Shown here: positions 3,780 to 64,000 of the stretch, piece by piece
How positions within the stretch are numbered: the first letter of the stretch is position 1
How the letters are laid out: every line of letters begins with the position of its first letter
NCBI GenBank assembly: GCA_003220535.1
Contig: QHSU01000059.1
Location: forward strand, 124,001 to 188,000
Origin: Candidatus Rokuibacteriota bacterium
GTDB taxonomy: Bacteria > Methylomirabilota > Methylomirabilia > Rokubacteriales > CSP1-6
Length of the DNA stretch: 64,000 bases
Reading direction: 5' to 3'
The notes under the pieces: generated by a model
Told to the model about the DNA's origin: nothing
Seen by the model: the letters and a program-made list of their open reading frames with translations, nothing else
Database searches by the model: none
Translations under genes and position numbers: made by a program

Positions 3780-3885
3780 TCGGGGATTATCGCGCGGCCT
3801 CCAGACGATGTCGACGCGCGGAGCGTGGGCCAGGCCGGGGGGCGCGGCGGACACCCGACCGGCTGCGTTACCCACTCGCCCGAAT

Positions 3886-3904
3886 CGCAGCTCTTCGAGC
3901 TGCG
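3886..3904 (-). terminator. small perfect hairpin after the MFS gene
   Basis: An 8-bp perfect stem (cgcagctc / gagctgcg) with a 3-base loop lies 74 bases beyond the stop of the minus-strand MFS gene and before the permease start at 3779. No T-run follows, so an intrinsic terminator is only a possibility. The rest of the 200-base gap shows no gene. Confidence 0.3.
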
Positions 3905-3977
3905 GGCGGGACGAGGGGGCCCACTGCGCCGGTTGTGTGTCCCCCCGCGCCGCCCGGCCTGCCGCGGCTCCCGGCGG

Positions 3978-54844: not shown

Positions 54845-55705
54845 TCAGTCTTTGACGGCTTGATCGGCGAAGCTCGACAACGCCTGCGCGAGGCCAGCCG
54901 GGTTCTCCATCTGCAGCGCGTAGTCGCCCTCGACGTCGATGACGACCGCGCTCTTCCAGCAGCCGGCGATCTCCTTCGCCTGCGCGATCGTCAGCTCTGA
55001 GCTGTGGCTGCCGCGCAGGATCGCGACCGGGCAGGTGGCCCTGGCGGCGTACTTCCTCAAATCGTCCGCCATGTGGGCGAGGCCGAGCGCCACGCGCACC
55101 TTGTCGTACTTGACGGCCACGCCGCCGCCGGCCGGAACGAAGTTGTACTCCAGGCGATGGCGCAGCGACGGCTCCTGGTCGCGGGGACGCGCCGAGCGCA
55201 GGTACCCGAGCGCCGCCTCTCGAGACGGGAACTCGGTCGGCGATTCGAGCATGCGGTGCGACGAGACCAGCACCTTGATGACTTCCTCGCGCGTGGGGAA
55301 GAAGTTGCTGATGTGTGGCCCGCCGACCAGGCCGAGCCCCTGGATCTCCCCTGGATAGACCGCCGCGAAGACCTGTCCGACCCGGCCGCCGAGGGACTGG
55401 CCGGCGACGATCGCCTTGTCGATCCCGACCTGCTGGAAGAACAGGTGCAGGTCCTGGGCGTACTCCTCCGCCGAGTAGTCGCCGTCCGGTCGCCCACTGT
55501 CGCCGTGCCCCCGCTGATCGAGGCCGTACACGTGGAACCGCGGGCCGAGGGCATTGGCCGTCCCTTCCCACATGCGACCGTAGCCGGAGGACGGATGCAG
55601 CAACACGAGATTCGGCCTGGGCCCGGGCCACTCGTAATAGTGGACTTTCAGCCCGTTCGGCAGGGTGACGTTTTTCTCGAGGAAGTCACGCGGATGTTCG
55701 GCCAT
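54845..55705 (-). CDS. alpha/beta hydrolase with catalytic His replaced
   Basis: A 286-residue alpha/beta-hydrolase fold protein. LVLLHPSSGYGRMWEG, GLDQRGHGDSGRPDGDYS and the nucleophile elbow AGQSLGG (Ser104) are intact. Near the C terminus, where family members have a GDH motif before LENP, the sequence is EGD-Tyr262-ALQMENP, so the catalytic His is a Tyr (codon TAC). It might be inactive or use another base. Upstream on the same strand is a 42-residue membrane protein. Confidence 0.88.
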   Translation of the reverse strand: MAEHPRDFLEKNVTLPNGLKVHYYEWPGPRPNLVLLHPSSGYGRMWEGTANALGPRFHVYGLDQRGHGDSGRPDGDYSAEEYAQDLHLFFQQVGIDKAIVAGQSLGGRVGQVFAAVYPGEIQGLGLVGGPHISNFFPTREEVIKVLVSSHRMLESPTEFPSREAALGYLRSARPRDQEPSLRHRLEYNFVPAGGGVAVKYDKVRVALGLAHMADDLRKYAARATCPVAILRGSHSSELTIAQAKEIAGCWKSAVVIDVEGDYALQMENPAGLAQALSSFADQAVKD

Positions 55706-55961: not shown

Positions 55962-55990
55962 TTGACGCCGCTCTCGCTCGGTGATACAAA
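55962..55990 (+). promoter_or_regulatory. sigma-70-type promoter for the molybdenum hydroxylase gene
   Basis: TTGACG and TACAAA with a 17-base spacer, ending 47 bases upstream of the ATG at 56038. No operator-like palindrome seen near it. Confidence 0.5.
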
Positions 55991-56037
55991 CCGACGCGCG
56001 CAGTGAACGAGCGAATCGATCTCTAGCCGAGGAGACC

Positions 56038-58341
56038 ATGGCGCACGCGAGCGATCCGGACAAATACGTCGGCCGGCCGATGAAGCGGCGGGAAGACCGA
56101 AGGCTCCTGCTCGGCGCCGGCAAGTACGTCGACGACCTCGCGCCGACGGGTTGTCTGTCCGTCGCCCTCCTGCGCTCGCCGCACGGCCACGCGCGCATCA
56201 CCCGCCTCGACGTCGCTGCCGCGCGCAAGGCGCCGGGCGTGGTGGTCGTCGTCACCGGCGACGAGGTGCGCCACCTGGCGCCGATGCCCGTGAACCCCGC
56301 GATCCCGGGGATGAAGATCCCTCCGCATCCGATCATCGCCGACGGCGCGGTGCACGCGACGGGCGAGCCCGTGGCCGCGATCGTCGCGGAGAGCGCGGCG
56401 GAGGCGTGGGACGCGGCCGAGCTGATCGAGGTGGAGTACGAGGAGCTCGCCGCGGTGTCCGAGCCCGAGGCGGCGCTCGCCGCGGGCGCGCCGGCGGTCT
56501 ATTCCGAGATCGAGGGCAATCGCTCGTTTCGGCGGGTGGTGAAGGGCGGCGATTCCGACGCCGCGTTCGCGAGCGCCGCGCACCGGGTGACCTTGCGAGT
56601 GGCGCAAGAGCGGATCTCCGCGGTCGCGATGGAGCCGCGCATGGTCGTGGCCAGCTACGACGCCGTGGCGGAGGAGCTGACGCTCTGGGTGTCGTGCCAG
56701 TCGCCGTTCCGCATCCGTGGCGAGGTGGCCCGGCTGCTAGGGCTGCACGAATCGCAGGTGCGCGTGATCGCGCCCGACGTGGGCGGCGGGTTCGGCGTCA
56801 AGACCGGGCCCTATCGCGAAGAGGTCTTGCTGGCCTGGCTGACGGTACGCCTCGGGCGACCCGTTCGATGGGCGTCGACCCGTCGCGAGGACTTCCAGAC
56901 GACGAACCACGCGCGCGGCTCGGTGTGCGAGAGCGAGCTGGCGCTGGACGCCGACGGACGCATCCTCGGCCTGCGCGCGCGCATCGTGTCGCCGCTGGGG
57001 GCGTCACTCATGTTCGCGGCGCCGGGCTCGCCGTCGAACCACGTGCGGTGCCTGCCCGGCGCCTACGTCGTGCCGAGCTGCGACATCGCGGTGGACGGGG
57101 CTCTGACCAACACGGCGCCGGTGTCGGCCTACCGCGGGGCCGGGCGCCCGGAGGCCTGTTTCGTCATCGAGCGGCTCATGGACACCGCGGCGCGGGCGCT
57201 GAAGCTCGACCCGGCGGAGCTGCGCCGTCGCAACCTGATCCCGCCGGATCGCTTCCCCTACCGCACCATCACCGGCCAGATCTACGACTCCGGCGACTAT
57301 CCGCAGGCGCTCGAGCGCGCGCTCGCCGCCGCGGACTATCCGGCGCTCCGTCGCGCTCACGAGGCGCGGCGCGCGCGCGGGGAAGTGGTCGGGGTCGGCC
57401 TCGTGAGCTACGTCGAGCCCTGCGCCCTCGGCTGGGAGAGCGGCAGCGTCAAGGTCGAGCGCTCGGGACGGGTGACTGCGATCACGGGCTCGAGCGCCCA
57501 CGGCCAAGGCCACGAGACGACGTTCGCCCAAGTGGTCGCCGATGCCGTGGGGGTCACGCCGGAGGACGTCACGGTGATCCACGGCGACACGCGACGCGGC
57601 CCCGAGGGGTTCGGCACGCACGGCAGCCGCAGCACGGCGCTCGGCGGCGGCGCCCTCGTCGAGGCCTCCGTGGTCGTGCGCGACAAGGGCCGCCGCATCG
57701 CCGCGAAGCTGCTCGAGGCCGGAGTGGACGACGTCGTCGGCGTGGGCGGCGGGTTCCACGTGATCGGCGCGCCGCAGAAGAAGATCACCTGGAAAGAGGT
57801 CGCGACCGCGGCCTACGCCGGTGGCACCGCGCTGCCGGCCGGCGACACGCCGGGGCTCGAGTCGTCGAGCTATTTCCAGCCCGAGGGCGAGGCCTGGAGC
57901 TCCGGCGCAGTCGTGGCCGCCGTCTCGATCGAGCGCGAATCGGGGCGGCTCGTCATCGAGTCGCTCACGTGGGTGGACGACGCGGGGACCATCATCAACC
58001 CACTGCTCGCCGAAGGACAGCTCCACGGCGGGCTCGCGCAGGGAATCGGCCAGGCGCTGATGGAGCGAATCGTCTACGACGAGCGCGGCCAGCTCCTGAC
58101 GGGGACGCTGATGGACTACGCGGTGCCGCGCGCCGATGACGTGCCGGCGGTGACGATCGAGAAGATGCACACGCCGTCACCGCGCAACCCGCTCGGCGCC
58201 AAGGGCCTGGGCGAGGCCGGCTGCATCGCCATCCCGCCCGCGGTCGTCAACGCGGTGGTCGACGCCCTCGTGCCGTTCGGCGTGACCCACGTCGACATGC
58301 CGCTGACGCCGGAGAAGCTCTGGCAGGCGATGCGGGGGTGA
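56038..58341 (+). CDS. xanthine dehydrogenase family molybdopterin-binding subunit (CoxL/XdhA-like)
   Basis: A 767-residue large subunit of a molybdenum hydroxylase. N-terminal RPMKRREDRRLLLGAGKYVDDL, CQSPFRIRGEVARLLGLHESQVRVIAPDVGGGFGVKTGPYREEVL, AYRGAGRPEACFVIERLMD and the C-terminal NPLGAKGLGEAG with its conserved catalytic Glu are present. The AYRGAGRPE loop is the aldehyde oxidase/isoquinoline type, not the CO-dehydrogenase AYRCSFR type. The medium (FAD) and small (2Fe-2S) subunits are not next to it, so it needs partners encoded elsewhere. ATG at 56038 has GAGGAGACC upstream. Confidence 0.93.
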   Translation: MAHASDPDKYVGRPMKRREDRRLLLGAGKYVDDLAPTGCLSVALLRSPHGHARITRLDVAAARKAPGVVVVVTGDEVRHLAPMPVNPAIPGMKIPPHPIIADGAVHATGEPVAAIVAESAAEAWDAAELIEVEYEELAAVSEPEAALAAGAPAVYSEIEGNRSFRRVVKGGDSDAAFASAAHRVTLRVAQERISAVAMEPRMVVASYDAVAEELTLWVSCQSPFRIRGEVARLLGLHESQVRVIAPDVGGGFGVKTGPYREEVLLAWLTVRLGRPVRWASTRREDFQTTNHARGSVCESELALDADGRILGLRARIVSPLGASLMFAAPGSPSNHVRCLPGAYVVPSCDIAVDGALTNTAPVSAYRGAGRPEACFVIERLMDTAARALKLDPAELRRRNLIPPDRFPYRTITGQIYDSGDYPQALERALAAADYPALRRAHEARRARGEVVGVGLVSYVEPCALGWESGSVKVERSGRVTAITGSSAHGQGHETTFAQVVADAVGVTPEDVTVIHGDTRRGPEGFGTHGSRSTALGGGALVEASVVVRDKGRRIAAKLLEAGVDDVVGVGGGFHVIGAPQKKITWKEVATAAYAGGTALPAGDTPGLESSSYFQPEGEAWSSGAVVAAVSIERESGRLVIESLTWVDDAGTIINPLLAEGQLHGGLAQGIGQALMERIVYDERGQLLTGTLMDYAVPRADDVPAVTIEKMHTPSPRNPLGAKGLGEAGCIAIPPAVVNAVVDALVPFGVTHVDMPLTPEKLWQAMRG

Positions 58342-58366: not shown

Positions 58367-58756
58367 TCAATCGAGGACGGCGACCGCTTCGATCTCGACC
58401 AGGAAATGCGGCTCGGCGAGGCCCTGCACGACGACCAGCGTGTTCGCGGGATACGGCGGCGCGGGGAATATCTCGTCGCGCGCGGCGGCGACCAGCGGTC
58501 GATAGGCCCAGTGCGTGATGTACGTGGTGGTCTTGACCAGGTGGCGAAGGCCGCCGCCGTAGTGGGCGAGGATCGCCGCGAGGTTGTCGTAGCATCGGCG
58601 GGCCTGCGCTCGCGCGTCGCCCACGCCGACCACGGCACCCGACGGGTCCATCGCGAGCTGGCCGGAGATGTAGAGCGTCTTGCCCGCCCGCCCCACGTGC
58701 GAGTAGTGCGCCTGCGGCGTGTGCACGCCGGAAGGATTCAGGAACTCGCGGTCCAT
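58367..58756 (-). CDS. RidA/YjgF family protein (non-archetypal)
   Basis: A 129-residue trimeric-type YjgF fold: YISGQLAMDPSGAVVG, ARRCYDNLAAILAHYGGGLRHLVKTTTYIT, and the end VVVQGLAEPHFLVEIEAVAV. The arginine that makes archetypal RidA an imine deaminase (P-A-R-[ST]) is replaced by Asn here (YPANTLVVV), so it belongs with Rid groups of other or unknown function, such as RutC-like proteins in pyrimidine breakdown. The start overlaps the CodA-like gene by 19 bases; last gene of the operon that runs to 64000. Confidence 0.88.
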   Translation of the reverse strand: MDREFLNPSGVHTPQAHYSHVGRAGKTLYISGQLAMDPSGAVVGVGDARAQARRCYDNLAAILAHYGGGLRHLVKTTTYITHWAYRPLVAAARDEIFPAPPYPANTLVVVQGLAEPHFLVEIEAVAVLD

Positions 58757-60087
58757 CCGACGAGATCGTCCAGCTCGCGATAGTCGGGCAGCCGCCGCTC
58801 GATCGCCCGGCCGCTCCTGACGACGACCCGGTTCGCCTGCGGCCGCGAGAGGAGCTCGCTCCAGGTCCGGCCCTGGAAGAGCACGAGATCCGCGGGCAAC
58901 CCCGGCCCGATGCGGCCGCCGCCCGCGAGGCCCATCAGGTCGGCCGGCGTCGTCGTCACCGCGCGCGGCCAGTCGCCGTACGGCCGGTCGAGGTGACAGA
59001 TGCGCGCGGCCTCGCGGAACACTTCGAGCATGTCGTGGTCGCCGAAGCCGTGGAACGCGTCGCGGCAGTTATCGCTGGCCACGGCGACGCGCACGCCCCG
59101 CTCGGCGAACTCGTGGAGCAGCGTCACACCCCGCCAGCGCGGCGTGCGCCCGGGCACGCGATCCTGTAAATACTGGTTGCACATCGGCAGGCTCACGACG
59201 CTGATCCCGGCCTCGGCGGTGAGATCGAGTGTCTCGGCGACGACGTCGGGCGGCTGGACGGCCAGGCTGCAGCAGTGCCCGCAGACGACCCGGCCCGCGA
59301 AGCGTCGCCGCCGCGCCGCGCGCGCGACGTGAGCCAGCGCTCGCGCGCCGACGTCGCCGCTCTCGTCGCAGTGCAAGTCGACGTCGAGCCCACGCTCGGC
59401 GGCGCGGTCGAACAGGCGATCGAGCAGCGCATCGATCTCCGGCGACATGTAGGCGACCGCGCCGAGGATGCCGCCCGCCGCGGCGACGCGGTCCGCCAGA
59501 TCGTCACCTTCCGGCGTACCGAAGATCTGGAGCGGGACCAGCGAGACGGCCTGAAGCTCGACCCGCCCGGCCCACTCCTTGCGGAGCCCCTCGAACACGG
59601 GCCAGCTGATCACGGCCTGCGGCGCCAGAGAGTCGACGTGAGTCCGCACGGCCCTCGTGCCGTGCGCCCAGCTGCACCGGAGCCCGAAATCCATGCGCCG
59701 GCGGACGTCGTCGGCCGACCAGTGCACGGTGCGGTCAGCCGCCACGGCGCGGAGGGCGCCGGCGAACGTGCCGTCCGAGTTCGGCGCGCGCTCCCAGGTG
59801 TGGCCCTTGTCCAGGTGCGTGTGGACGTCGATCAGGCATGGCCAGACCTGGCCGCGCCGGAGGTCGACGCTGGGTTCCGAGGCGTCCGGCACCGACGCCG
59901 GCGGCTCGACGGCGGCGATGCGCGCGTCGCGAATGACGACGTCTACGACCGCCAGCCCGTCGGGGGATAGCGACACGCCTGGGGGGAGATCGGTCAGGAA
60001 CGCCGCCGGGACCGTGGCGCTCCGCAGCCGGTACGCACTCCGTTCAGGGACCGTGACGAAGTCCACCGCCGCCCCAGGCGAGCTCAC
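58738..60087 (-). CDS. cytosine deaminase-like cyclic amidohydrolase
   Basis: A 449-residue metallo-amidohydrolase of the CodA/N-isopropylammelide branch. PCLIDVHTHLDKGHTW holds the H-x-H metal ligands, DLHCDESGD is the CodA H-C-D-E signature, VVCGHCCSLA the next His and VAVASDNCRDAFHGFGDHDML the metal Asp (SDN where CodA has HDD). GHTW and W-x-x-P near the end fit. The reaction is removal of an amino group or opening of a ring in a pyrimidine, triazine or related heterocycle. GTG start, 9 bases after the permease gene. Confidence 0.88.
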   Translation of the reverse strand: MSSPGAAVDFVTVPERSAYRLRSATVPAAFLTDLPPGVSLSPDGLAVVDVVIRDARIAAVEPPASVPDASEPSVDLRRGQVWPCLIDVHTHLDKGHTWERAPNSDGTFAGALRAVAADRTVHWSADDVRRRMDFGLRCSWAHGTRAVRTHVDSLAPQAVISWPVFEGLRKEWAGRVELQAVSLVPLQIFGTPEGDDLADRVAAAGGILGAVAYMSPEIDALLDRLFDRAAERGLDVDLHCDESGDVGARALAHVARAARRRRFAGRVVCGHCCSLAVQPPDVVAETLDLTAEAGISVVSLPMCNQYLQDRVPGRTPRWRGVTLLHEFAERGVRVAVASDNCRDAFHGFGDHDMLEVFREAARICHLDRPYGDWPRAVTTTPADLMGLAGGGRIGPGLPADLVLFQGRTWSELLSRPQANRVVVRSGRAIERRLPDYRELDDLVGWTASS

Positions 60088-60096
60088 GATCGCCCT

Positions 60097-60951
60097 TCAG
60101 CCTTCACGCGCGACGGCGCTCTCGTGCCACTTCCGTAGGATCAGGTGCGACAGCGCCGTCAACGCCAGGAAGATGAGGATCCCCGTGCACGTGATCATCA
60201 AGAGCGCGGCGAACATGCGGGGGATCTGCATTGTGTACCCGGACTCGAGAATGCGGTAGGCGAGTCCCGACTGGGTGCCGCCCGTGCCGGCCACGAACTC
60301 CGCCACGACCGCGCCGATCAAGGCTAACCCGCCGCTGATGCGGAGCCCGCCCAGGAAGTACGGCATCGCGCTGGGCAGTCGCAGGTACCAGAAGACCTGC
60401 CGGCGCGAGGCGCCGTAGAGCTGCATCAGGTTCAATAGATTGTGGTCGGCGCTGTTGAGCCCGAGCGTGGTGTTGGACACGATCGGGAAGAACGCGACGA
60501 TCCATGCGCAGATCAGGAGCGCGACGGGGATGTTCTTGACCCAGATGATGATGAGCGGCGCGATCGCCACGACCGGCGTCACCTGGAGGATCACGGCGTA
60601 CGGGAAGAGGCTCAGCTCGATCAGCTTGGACTGGGTGAAAAGGATCGCGATGAGCACCCCGGCGACCGTGGCGACGAGCAGGGCGGCCCCGGTGATCGTC
60701 AGCGTGACGAGGAGCGAAGGGTAGAGCGTGCCCCAGTCCCGGACGAGCGTCCCCAGAACGAGGAGCGGCCCGGGCAGGATGTAGTAAGGGATCTGGTTCA
60801 GGCGCACGACCAGCTCCCACGCGACCAGGCCGGCGCCGCCGATGACCAGGGGTGGAAGCACGCGGCGCACCGCTCGCCCGATGTCGAGCCCGCGCGGCCG
60901 AGCGGGCGCGCTCGCTCGGGCTGTCTCCACGTCGCTCACGGCGGCGCTCAC
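60097..60951 (-). CDS. ABC transporter permease (SsuC/ThiX/TauC type)
   Basis: A 284-residue BPD_transp_1 permease with about six helices. LVIGGAGLVAWELVVRLNQIPYYILPGP is the typical opening and YGASRRQVFWYLRLPSAMPYFLGGLRISGGLALIGAVVAEFVAG the EAA loop that docks the ATPase. The relatives import taurine, sulfonates, nitrate, or pyrimidines and thiamine precursors. The GTG at 60951 overlaps the ATPase stop (GTGA). Follows ATPase and precedes the CodA-like deaminase. Confidence 0.92.
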   Translation of the reverse strand: MSAAVSDVETARASAPARPRGLDIGRAVRRVLPPLVIGGAGLVAWELVVRLNQIPYYILPGPLLVLGTLVRDWGTLYPSLLVTLTITGAALLVATVAGVLIAILFTQSKLIELSLFPYAVILQVTPVVAIAPLIIIWVKNIPVALLICAWIVAFFPIVSNTTLGLNSADHNLLNLMQLYGASRRQVFWYLRLPSAMPYFLGGLRISGGLALIGAVVAEFVAGTGGTQSGLAYRILESGYTMQIPRMFAALLMITCTGILIFLALTALSHLILRKWHESAVAREG

Positions 60952-61724
60952 GAGTGCATCGCTTCGGCCAGACGTGCCGAGACCTGCCGGCAGTACTCGT
61001 TGTAGAGCAGAGACGTTCGGAACGCCTCGTCGCGAGGCGTCGGCGCCTCGATGGCGACCTCGCTCGCCGTGCGCCCTGGCCGCGCGGTCATCACGGCGAT
61101 CCGCGTAGACAGGTACACGGACTCGTACACGCTGTGGGTCACGAACACGACGGTCCAGCGCTGGCGGGCCCAGAGCGCCAGGAGGTCGTTGTCGAGCTTG
61201 AATCGAGTGATCTCGTCGAGCGACGCGAACGGCTCGTCCAGCAGGAGCAGCCGGGGATGCGTGACCAGGGCTCGGGCGATCGACACGCGCATCTTCATGC
61301 CGCCCGAGAGCTCGCGTGGATAGGCGCGCTCGAAGCCGTCGAGGCCCACCATCCCGATCGCCTCCCGGACCCGCGCGGTCGCCTCCTCGGCCGGAACGCC
61401 ACGCAGCTTCAAGGGGAGGAGGACGTTCTTGAACACGGTCGCCCACGGCATGAGCGTCGGCTCCTGGAACACGAAGCCGATGTCGCCTCGCGGCAGCCCG
61501 GCGCGGCCATTCGCGCTTGGCCACTCGATGCGGCCGCCCGAGACTTCGCCCAGCCCCGCCACGAGCCGTAGCACCGTGCTCTTCCCGCACCCGGAGGGGC
61601 CGAGCAGGCTCAGGAACTCTCCCTCGCCCACGTCCAGGTCCAGGCGCCGCAGCGCGACGACGCCGTTGCCGTAGATCTTGTCGACGTGCTGCAGCTGGAC
61701 GACGGCAGGGATGCCGCGACTCAC
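60948..61724 (-). CDS. ABC transporter ATP-binding protein (SsuB/TauB type)
   Basis: A 258-residue ATPase. Walker A GPSGCGKST, Q-loop FVFQEPTLMPW, signature LSGGMKMRVSIARAL, Walker B LLLLDEPFASLD and H-loop VFVTHSVYES. Slightly unusual is MKMRVS where QQQRV is the rule in the signature, a change seen in this branch. GTG at 61724 overlaps the binding-protein stop (GTGA). Confidence 0.95.
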   Translation of the reverse strand: MSRGIPAVVQLQHVDKIYGNGVVALRRLDLDVGEGEFLSLLGPSGCGKSTVLRLVAGLGEVSGGRIEWPSANGRAGLPRGDIGFVFQEPTLMPWATVFKNVLLPLKLRGVPAEEATARVREAIGMVGLDGFERAYPRELSGGMKMRVSIARALVTHPRLLLLDEPFASLDEITRFKLDNDLLALWARQRWTVVFVTHSVYESVYLSTRIAVMTARPGRTASEVAIEAPTPRDEAFRTSLLYNEYCRQVSARLAEAMHS

Positions 61725-62746
61725 GACTTGCCGGGCTTGAGATTCATCCCGTGCTTCTTGTTGACGAACTGCAGCGTGTACGCGCGCTTGAGGTCGAGGT
61801 CGGGCGCGTAGAGGCCGGCCTCCACCATCGTCGCGTGGAAGTCCTTCCAACGCGCGTCGACCATGGCGCCGATCCCGAGCTTCTCGGCGTCCCCGGAGTC
61901 GACGATGCCGTACTTCTTCAAGGTCGCGAGGCTGTGCGCGATCTGGTCGTCGGTCATCTCCGGGTTGTCTTTCTTGATGAGCGCGTTGGCGGGGGCCCCG
62001 TCGCCGTAGAGATAGCTGTACCAGCCCTCGATGGTGCCGTTCACGAACCGCTGCACGAGGTCGGGCTTCTCGGTGACGAGCTTCCAGGACGTCTCGATCG
62101 TGGTCGCATACGACGAGTAGCCGCCGTCGGCGAGCAGGTGGACGACGAGCTTGGCGCCCGCTTTCTCGAGCTTGTACGGCTCGCTCGTCACGAAGCCCTG
62201 CTGGATCGCCGACTTGTCGGCGAGGAACGGCGCCATGTTGAACGTGTACGTGCGGATCTGCTCGTCGGCGTAGCCGTACTTGACCCGGAGGAACTGCCAG
62301 TAGCCGGCCCGCGCCACCGGCGAAATCATGATCGGCTTGCCCTTCATCGCCGCGAGCGAGTCGTTGCCCTGGCCGGCGTGGGCGATGAGCACCTGCGGAT
62401 CCTTCTGGAAGACGGTCCCGACGCACACCATGGGGATGTTGTTCTTGACGTAGTTCAGCGCGCTGAAGCAGTTGCTGCCCATGTTGAAGTCGATCGCGCC
62501 GGCGGCGAGGAGCTGGGGGTGGTTGATCTGCGGCCCGCCCATCCGGATCGTCGCGTCGATGCCGAGCTTCTTGTAGATGCCGGTGGCCACGGCCTGGTAG
62601 TAGCCGCCGTGCTCGGCCTGCGCCTTCCAGTTGGTGCCGAACGTGAGCTTGTCCAGCGTCTGCGCGCGCGCCGGCGCCACGCGCCGGGAGCCGATCGCGC
62701 CGGCCAACACGACGGTGGATGTCTTGAGGAACGTTCGACGGATCAT
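61721..62746 (-). CDS. Tat-exported NMT1/THI5-like ABC substrate-binding protein
   Basis: A 341-residue binding protein. MIRRTFLKTSTVVLAGAIGS is a textbook Tat signal (R-R-T-F-L-K). The mature part LTFGTNWKAQAEHGGYYQAVATGIYKKLGIDATIRMGG is the NMT1 signature found in ThiY, SsuA and related proteins that bind pyrimidine or sulfonate ligands. The ATG at 62746 is preferred over 62767 for this signal, with aaggaagg upstream; it is 1 base after the creatininase stop. Confidence 0.93.
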   Translation of the reverse strand: MIRRTFLKTSTVVLAGAIGSRRVAPARAQTLDKLTFGTNWKAQAEHGGYYQAVATGIYKKLGIDATIRMGGPQINHPQLLAAGAIDFNMGSNCFSALNYVKNNIPMVCVGTVFQKDPQVLIAHAGQGNDSLAAMKGKPIMISPVARAGYWQFLRVKYGYADEQIRTYTFNMAPFLADKSAIQQGFVTSEPYKLEKAGAKLVVHLLADGGYSSYATTIETSWKLVTEKPDLVQRFVNGTIEGWYSYLYGDGAPANALIKKDNPEMTDDQIAHSLATLKKYGIVDSGDAEKLGIGAMVDARWKDFHATMVEAGLYAPDLDLKRAYTLQFVNKKHGMNLKPGKS

Positions 62747-62747
62747 C

Positions 62748-63602
62748 CTAACCTTCCTTCGGCGCAAGATGGATTTCTCGCTTCGGGCTCCGGTAGATCG
62801 CCTCGAGGAGCTCGGCCAGGCGCGACGCCTTCGCGTCGCACATGAGCCGGCCCTTCTCGGCGGACGAGCGGTGGGGGTTGCCGATCGCGCCGGTCTTGGA
62901 GAGATCGGAGGCGACCCACGCCTCGATCACGTCATGGCCCTTGAACGAGTAGCCGATGTCGGGCGTCGGCTCGAACACGTAGCCCTCGGCCCGGTCCATG
63001 TGCACCAGCTCGGGAGCCAGGTGCCGGACTATCGAGGTCTCCGAGTCGCCGGAGTGCATCGCGATGGCCGCCTCGTCGGGCGCCACCAGGCCGGGCACCT
63101 GGCCGATGCCGCCCAGAAAGATCTTGAAGACTCTCAGATCGGTCTCCATCCGGAGATCGCGGAAGTAGTCGTCGGTGGTCCCGACGTTCCCGCCGTGGCT
63201 CCCGAGCAGCACGAGCTTCGTGAACCCGCTCCGGGCCACGGACGCCGCCAGGTCCTTCAGGACCATGCGCAGCGTCTCACCGCTGAAGGTCAGTGTCCCC
63301 GGAAACGTGATGTGCTCGACGCTCTTGCCGAACGTGGTTGGCGGCAGCGCCAGCACCGTCACGTCGTCCGGGAGCCGGGCGAGCGCGGCGCCGAGCACCT
63401 CCATGCCGACGAGCGTGTCGGTGATGAGCGGAAGATGCGGGCCGTGCTGCTCGACCGCGCCGACGTTGATCACCGCCGTGGCGTTCCGGTCGTGCTTCGC
63501 GATCGCGTCGATCTCCTGCCACGTGTAGTAGGCCCAGTACCGATGCGGCGGGATCGATCCGTGGAGACCCGTCCCGAGCTTCGCCGGCAGCTTCTTCAAC
63601 AT
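62748..63602 (-). CDS. creatininase family protein
   Basis: A 284-residue metallo-amidohydrolase of the creatininase/ArfB-MftE type. VINVGAVEQHGPHLPLITD (metal Glu, His, Asp), LLGSHGGNVGTTDD and IAMHSGDSETSIV with the later His/Glu are complete. Members hydrolyse creatinine (a cyclic amide), formamidopyrimidines or peptide ends. The ATG at 63602 is chosen because GGAGG lies 5 bases upstream; the GTG at 63617 overlapping the LLM stop is an alternative. Its place between an LLM monooxygenase and a pyrimidine-type importer suggests cleavage of a cyclic amide intermediate. Confidence 0.92.
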   Translation of the reverse strand: MLKKLPAKLGTGLHGSIPPHRYWAYYTWQEIDAIAKHDRNATAVINVGAVEQHGPHLPLITDTLVGMEVLGAALARLPDDVTVLALPPTTFGKSVEHITFPGTLTFSGETLRMVLKDLAASVARSGFTKLVLLGSHGGNVGTTDDYFRDLRMETDLRVFKIFLGGIGQVPGLVAPDEAAIAMHSGDSETSIVRHLAPELVHMDRAEGYVFEPTPDIGYSFKGHDVIEAWVASDLSKTGAIGNPHRSSAEKGRLMCDAKASRLAELLEAIYRSPKREIHLAPKEG

Positions 63603-63613
63603 TTTGTCCTCCG

Positions 63614-64000
63614 TCACACGCCGGCCGCGATCGGCCGGCTCGTCGGGGCGCGTGCCGCAAGCGCCGGCCGCACGTCGGCCCAGAAGCGCCCGAGCTGTTC
63701 GAGCGTCTCCGGCCGCCGCATCCCGGGCAGGTGGGGGAAGATCACGAGCGCCTCGAAGCCGAGCTCGGCCTGCATCTCGAGCAGGGTGTCTCGGGCCTGC
63801 TCGGGTGTGCCGACGATCCAGGACTTGCCCGCCATGCGCTCCTCGAGCGTGAAGGGCGGGCGGCTCGCGAGGGCCGAGTTGCGGCGAATGATGTTCGGCC
63901 AGAGCAGCTTGGTGAGCTCGTCGTGTCCGCGCCGCGCCGTCCGGATCGCCGCCGCCGCCGAGTCGGCGATGTGCAGCTGCACCTGGAGCATCCGGTCTTC
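63614..64000 (-). CDS. LLM class flavin-dependent oxidoreductase, C-terminal part (runs off window)
   Basis: 129 codons of the C-terminal end. GKSWIVGTPEQARDTLLEMQAELGFEALVIFPHLPGMRRPETLEQLGRFWADVRPAL is the standard closing segment of luciferase-like monooxygenases (VGTPEQ-type block followed by the last helix). The N-terminal flavin barrel lies beyond 64000. First visible gene of the operon with creatininase, importer, deaminase and RidA-like protein. Confidence 0.8.
   Translation of the reverse strand, partial: EDRMLQVQLHIADSAAAAIRTARRGHDELTKLLWPNIIRRNSALASRPPFTLEERMAGKSWIVGTPEQARDTLLEMQAELGFEALVIFPHLPGMRRPETLEQLGRFWADVRPALAARAPTSRPIAAGV

Follow-up and report, generated by a model that had tools for sequence, protein, structure and literature searches.

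A conserved seven-gene set in Candidatus Rokubacteria with a predicted role in N-heterocycle uptake and catabolism

We analyzed a 64,000-nucleotide stretch (the window) from the genome of a soil bacterium of the Candidatus Rokuibacteriota (contig QHSU01000059.1, positions 124,001 to 188,000) and found, at its far end, seven closely packed minus-strand genes that form a conserved and apparently so far undescribed set. With moderate confidence, we interpret this set as an operon dedicated to the uptake and catabolism of one aromatic N-heterocycle, most likely a 4-aminopyrimidine that lacks a 2-oxo group, as in the pyrimidine of thiamine, rather than cytosine. We favor this type of compound because the glutamine with which CodA holds the substrate oxygen is gone from the CodA-like hydrolase of the set, and because its binding protein adjoins thiamin and aminopyrimidine binders in kinship. 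A literature search of titles and abstract openings, mostly from journals outside subscription, found no description of the gene set. The genes, together with a possible eighth member, are as follows; handles beginning with L denote loci, and L004 is the locus of the window.

63614..64000, minus strand: luciferase-like monooxygenase (LLM), a flavin enzyme, C-terminal part (full-length protein at L004:7618-8781; Pfam Bac_luciferase, 155 bits)
62748..63617, minus strand: creatininase-fold amidohydrolase of the HGG[NQ] subgroup (Pfam Creatininase, 208 bits)
61721..62746, minus strand: NMT1/THI5-type solute-binding protein with a twin-arginine-type signal motif (Pfam NMT1)
60948..61724, minus strand: ATP-binding cassette (ABC) transporter ATPase (Pfam ABC_tran, 111 bits)
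60097..60951, minus strand: ABC transporter permease (Pfam BPD_transp_1, 87 bits)
58738..60087, minus strand: CodA-fold metal hydrolase of the PRK07583 group, with Pro185 at the place of the CodA glutamine (Pfam Amidohydro_3/1)
58367..58756, minus strand: RidA/YjgF-family protein with Asn for the catalytic Arg (Pfam Ribonuc_L-PSP, 87 bits)
54848..55705, minus strand: alpha/beta hydrolase, possible eighth member (in L006, L007, and L008, the first gene past the RidA-like one)

The original prediction, made from the window alone, had described seven minus-strand genes with tiny gaps or overlaps; this packing is read directly in the sequence, and Pfam agrees with every family name. Overlaps of 4 bases (GTGA) join the LLM to the creatininase gene, the NMT1 to the ATPase gene, and the ATPase to the permease gene, the CodA-like and RidA-like genes overlap by 19 bases, and 9 bases separate the permease from the CodA-like gene. 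Between the creatininase and NMT1 genes there is a 1-base gap if the latter starts with the ATG at 62746, which is preceded by GGAAGG; an alternative start, the TTG at 62767, would give a 20-base overlap. Six of the genes are complete in the window, but the LLM gene is cut at its edge and runs on to approximately 64777 (start codon picked by eye). Extending the locus past 64000, as had been proposed, completed this gene and placed a divergent dienelactone-hydrolase-like gene upstream of it; the contig stops 2,078 bases beyond the window end. At the other end, a convergent xanthine-dehydrogenase-like gene separates the alpha/beta hydrolase gene from the operon.

The arrangement is not due to chance, because its order, from the LLM gene through the creatininase, NMT1, ATPase, permease, and CodA-like genes to the RidA-like gene, is whole in six of eight related loci, with gene identities of 72-94%; the remaining two (L010 and L011) begin within the set at a contig end. 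These eight relatives, whose CodA-like proteins are 72-83% identical to that of the window, all belong to Candidatus Rokubacteria, and the core of the set extends beyond the phylum, so that restriction to a single strain, the outcome that would have spoken against the original prediction, was not what we found. Among 95 genomes of the phylum, with the best 20 candidates scored in each, a CodA-like orthologue (at least 78% identity) was found in 10, the window's own genome included, and not in the other 85. Nine of these ten also bear an LLM orthologue (at least 85%, one a fragment); in the tenth, the contig has just 878 bases ahead of the CodA-like match and so lacks the place of the LLM gene. 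LLM paralogues at 33-43% identity are common in the phylum, and the operon LLM was therefore probably recruited from this local family.

The CodA-like protein has CodA and 5-methylcytosine deaminase as its closest folds, and the curated NCBIfam model NF005759 names it a cytosine deaminase (666 bits; cut-off, 403). Its metal-binding His and Asp residues and catalytic Glu (His89, His91, His239, Glu242, His271, and Asp339) are kept in 63-65 of 65 rows. In the available text of PMC12828455, a glutamine after beta-strand 3 binds the exocyclic oxygen of the substrate, stabilizing the oxyanion, and is needed for activity. A gap-free alignment places this glutamine of E. coli CodA opposite Pro185 of the window protein; Gln occupies the position in 4 of 74 clade rows, being absent in 70, versus 19 of 22 outgroup rows, and in nearly every row the clade lacks Gln at either place given in that text. 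The predicted CodA-like deaminase thus holds for fold, metal ligands, and acid/base residues, but not for the glutamine. Most of the clade differs in this from E. coli CodA and the Klebsiella 5-methylcytosine deaminase, and it further carries a signature of its own, HLDKGHTWxR. Judged from sequence, the label "cytosine deaminase" is doubtful for this widespread clade, because the CodA glutamine is lost and because the solved proteins closest to the binding protein have thiamin or its pyrimidine breakdown product as ligand; with a residue required for the reaction on cytosine mostly missing, the name probably conceals a different substrate. Most of the rokubacterial CodA-type paralogues examined (L117-L134) retain the Gln, yet their catalytic Glu is replaced by Ser, Phe, or Leu and their metal-binding Asp by Asn; perhaps these are not deaminases. 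In one cyanobacterium, the CodA-like gene matches as two pieces in different frames (L040:10001-11379).

The Tat signal attributed to the binding protein agrees with an RRTFLK motif, which we take to be of the twin-arginine type. By both sequence and fold, the nearest solved relatives of this protein are ThiY-type and thiamin-binding proteins (3ix1 and 4nmy) and THI5, at 16-21% identity, and fold ranking puts thiamin and pyrimidine binders ahead of sulfonate, nitrate, bicarbonate, and pyrroloquinoline quinone (PQQ) binders. This kinship is consistent with the predicted importer for an N-heterocycle. A sulfonate importer is disfavored by the same ranking, in which a weaker match is no proof. 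In the available text of PMC11103875, an ABC system, RL4400-02 of R. leguminosarum, is a predicted importer of hydroxymethylpyrimidine (HMP).

In the CREATININASE-fold (creatininase-fold) protein, EQHG, an Asp, HGG[NQ], and E-T are present in 29 of 29 relatives examined, a His/Glu/Asp pattern that is presumably metal-binding. The protein scores 90.1 bits against the creatininase model TIGR04448 (cut-off, 235), and it also misses the NCBIfam cut-off for MftE. The RidA-like protein of the window aligns an Asn with the Arg of RidA-type relatives, as had been noticed from the window alone, and its 24 relatives examined carry Asn (8) or Ser (16) there, with the Glu kept in all 24. According to the available text of PMC4433059, this Arg is essential to imine hydrolysis by RidA and variable in Rid5 and Rid6. 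Because it is replaced, the operon protein is unlikely, on its residues, to be a strict RidA-type imine hydrolase. It resembles the Arg-less subfamilies (Rid4-Rid7) of the same text in having the catalytic Arg replaced and the Glu kept; the Asn or Ser is its own feature.

Outside Rokubacteria, where the oxidizing gene is the LLM, other enzymes are found. Rhizobiaceae, Rhodobacterales, and four cyanobacterial loci have a GlcD-like FAD_binding_4 oxidase in place of the LLM, in Proteobacteria mostly accompanied by one or two Flavodoxin_2 reductases. Two loci (L028 and L034) carry a Rieske (VanA_C-type) oxygenase between the permease and CodA-like genes, with a 2-oxoglutarate-iron (2OG-Fe) enzyme behind it in L028, and L107 unites nearly all oxidizing and partner genes. 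The 2OG-Fe enzymes of some loci combine DIOX_N and 2OG-FeII_Oxy domains. Their positions suggest that the LLM, FAD oxidase, Rieske, and 2OG-Fe enzymes occupy one metabolic slot. The window's own genome gave just partial matches to the FAD oxidase, at 31-34% identity on other contigs, and plasmids gave no LLM match at E <= 1e-15.

The Rut pathway likewise employs a flavin monooxygenase, a RidA-family protein, and an amidohydrolase in N-heterocycle breakdown, and all three kinds of protein occur in the operon. However, the LLM is not RutA, which is absent from the best 25 of its 27 NCBIfam matches; searching the genome with RutA (TIGR03612) gave at best 121 bits versus a cut-off of 498.3, with none of the 56 matches at the operon LLM gene. 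RutB (TIGR03614) reached 75.9 bits in the genome versus a cut-off of 377.95, in line with its predicted absence, and RutC (TIGR03610) scored 60.5 bits on the operon RidA-like protein versus a cut-off of 169.1. Membership of the Rut pathway is ruled out by these curated cut-offs, and the RutA-like ring opening that had been proposed finds no support, given the same scores and the use of other oxidases in other lineages. Unlike RutA-G, the operon further includes an ABC importer and a CodA-like hydrolase, has a creatininase fold instead of RutB, and encodes a RidA-like protein without the Arg. Three loci have a gene of the isochorismatase family close to the set, and that of L107, at 130 bits, does not reach the RutB cut-off of 378.

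Some Cyanobacteria and many Alphaproteobacteria share a core of NMT1-type binding protein, ATPase, permease, and CodA-like hydrolase, which in the latter is often joined by creatininase-fold and Arg-less RidA-like genes. We counted partners at most 9 kb from the CodA-like gene, at fixed similarity thresholds, in 23 cyanobacterial and 42 proteobacterial loci; these were gathered via the CodA-like gene or the binding protein, with plasmid loci partly chosen by hand from lists of hits, 7 in one batch and 7 of 8 in another, and several close kin among them, so the counts are not independent. An actinobacterial locus (L045), L142, and L116, which duplicates the stretch of L024, were left out. The cyanobacterial loci had a permease in 11, an ATPase in 7, NMT1 in 5, and the FAD oxidase in 4 (about 8 kb off in L015), with neither creatininase nor RidA-like genes in any. 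The proteobacterial loci had an ATPase in 32, NMT1 in 30, a permease in 29, the FAD_binding_4 oxidase in 26, the flavodoxin-like reductase in 25, creatininase in 24, a RidA-like gene in 18, a 2OG-Fe oxygenase in 10, and a Rieske oxygenase in 5. With up to 4 candidates scored per genome, matches were found in 18 of 385 genomes drawn from the class of a Rhizobium (G095; E <= 1e-100) and in 2 of 369 drawn from the class of G100 (E <= 1e-90).

Several relatives lie in other surroundings. On Rhizobiales plasmids (L135-L138), a clade member sits beside isochorismatase, 2-hydroxymuconate tautomerase, and amidohydrolase genes, with proteins annotated as dipicolinate synthase DpsA and octopine/nopaline dehydrogenase; this context is that of another, so far uncharacterized pathway. 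In Aminobacter, Shinella, and Phyllobacterium, the context differs from that of the operon, with isochorismatase, tautomerase, and a remoter RidA-type gene. Some rhizobia and agrobacteria have a second copy of the CodA-like gene, 45.6-49% identical to that of the window, beside LysR and 2OG-Fe genes (L113, L139, and L140), adjoined by ABC genes in L139 and L140. The second copy and the Aminobacter, Shinella, and Phyllobacterium context may serve different substrates.

From these families we infer the ligand, each reaction, and the order of the steps, and the uptake, deamination, oxidation, and hydrolysis originally proposed hold in outline. The exported NMT1-type protein would capture the compound and the ABC pair import it, whereupon the CodA-fold enzyme would hydrolyze off the exocyclic amino (or amine) group. 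The product would then be oxidized by the LLM flavoenzyme or, elsewhere, by the FAD_binding_4 oxidase, mostly with its flavodoxin-like reductase, or by Rieske or 2OG-Fe oxygenases. The creatininase-fold enzyme would cleave an amide C-N bond, and the Arg-less RidA-like protein would handle an enamine, imine, or related intermediate. When bacteria break down vitamin B6, opening of the ring produces an N-acetyl group on which an amidase acts; by analogy, and speculatively, a 2-methylpyrimidine could yield acetamide-like material for the creatininase-fold enzyme.

Several observations weigh against a thiamine-type pyrimidine as the substrate of a dedicated operon. Four clade rows do have the Gln (L028, L029, L034, and L039), and the fold ranking of the binding protein is a measure of kinship, not of ligand. 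A thiamine pyrophosphate (TPP) riboswitch was not found in 14 loci, L004 included, at the Rfam gathering threshold. The neighbor families outside the operon set that are present in at least 3 of 35 proteobacterial loci (peptidase S15, short-chain dehydrogenase/reductase, isochorismatase, and a branched-chain-type permease) include no thiamine gene, so homology alone ties the operon to thiamine. Finally, at the thresholds used, the CodA-like gene stands without any partner in 12 of the 23 cyanobacterial loci and in 7 of the 42 from Proteobacteria, and the set is therefore not obligatory; three of those seven (L136-L138) do have, by annotation, an ABC importer and a RidA gene, both of remoter kinds, with the NMT1 and YjgF families in L137.

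Were the annotation correct, cytosine or 5-methylcytosine would be imported and deaminated before oxidative pyrimidine breakdown. The NCBIfam score, the nearest folds, and the four rows with Gln agree with this, as do the 2OG-Fe enzymes of some loci, thymine hydroxylase being a member of that family; we nonetheless judge it rather unlikely, given that 70 of 74 rows lack the glutamine and that an NCBIfam name is not an assay. An improbable substrate is a creatinine, hydantoin, or triazine-type heterocycle, on which a CodA-like deiminase would act first, before ring opening by the creatininase-fold enzyme and the action of an oxidase. The creatinine analogue that the original prediction listed is not favored, the creatininase-fold protein lying far under the creatininase cut-off (90 versus 235 bits); the binding protein is closest to pyrimidine binders, and the tested CodA-cluster enzymes in the available text of PMC12828455, AtzC and TrzC included, have the glutamine.

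That the genes salvage the B1 pyrimidine for biosynthesis instead of degrading it seems highly improbable, even with a binding protein akin to ThiY-type and thiamin binders and, in one cyanobacterium (L018), a ThiD2/thiamine monophosphate synthase gene about 1.8 kb upstream on the opposite strand: deamination would destroy the precursor, the 14 loci had no TPP riboswitch, and oxidases and an amidohydrolase accompany the set. These catabolic-looking partners also set the operon apart from its ThiY-type kin. Reuse of the same families for a different class of compound, such as a purine or cytokinin base, a pterin, or a non-heterocycle, would suit the many ligands of NMT1-fold proteins and the near-complete absence from the enzyme clade of Gln at both places described in PMC12828455 (available text), which leaves room for other classes of substrate; the ranking of thiamin and pyrimidine binders above sulfonate, nitrate, bicarbonate, and PQQ binders makes it distinctly unlikely.

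Our preferred interpretation is the uptake and catabolism of a 4-aminopyrimidine without a 2-oxo group. The gene set yields a clear prediction, open to testing, of the substrate and of where the carbon and nitrogen of such a small heterocycle end up in soil, in the rhizosphere, and in water. Only tentatively do we extend this interpretation to the proposal that the Gln-less CodA clade deaminates thiamine-derived 2-methyl-4-aminopyrimidines (HMP, its aminomethyl (AmMP) or formylaminomethyl (FAMP) counterparts, or thiamine itself). In that case, the operon would encode a widespread B1-pyrimidine catabolic pathway common to Rokubacteria, Cyanobacteria, and Alphaproteobacteria, with a fixed importer-deaminase core and an exchangeable oxidizing module (an LLM, a Rieske or 2OG-Fe enzyme, or a FAD oxidase plus flavodoxin-like reductase). 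If thiamine's pyrimidine were the substrate, the pathway would constitute a sink in the vitamin B1 cycle. The exchangeable module would exemplify how different chemistries can occupy one slot in nature.

Two features border the operon. The convergent xanthine-dehydrogenase-family large subunit (55981-58341) falls under the cut-off of all 13 NCBIfam models that it matched, the best being glyceraldehyde dehydrogenase (671 bits; cut-off, 790). The space from the LLM gene to the dienelactone-hydrolase gene contains a palindromic repeat (L004:8908-9064, approximately 64907-65063 in window numbering, just beyond the end) with 51-nt arms that are 94% complementary. In this genome, a 176-base query of this repeat had 28 matches (E <= 1e-5), counting itself and its own reverse complement, of which one lies within the window (approximately 3830-3943) and others on the same contig; it looks like an element of the repetitive extragenic palindrome (REP) or miniature inverted-repeat transposable element (MITE) type.

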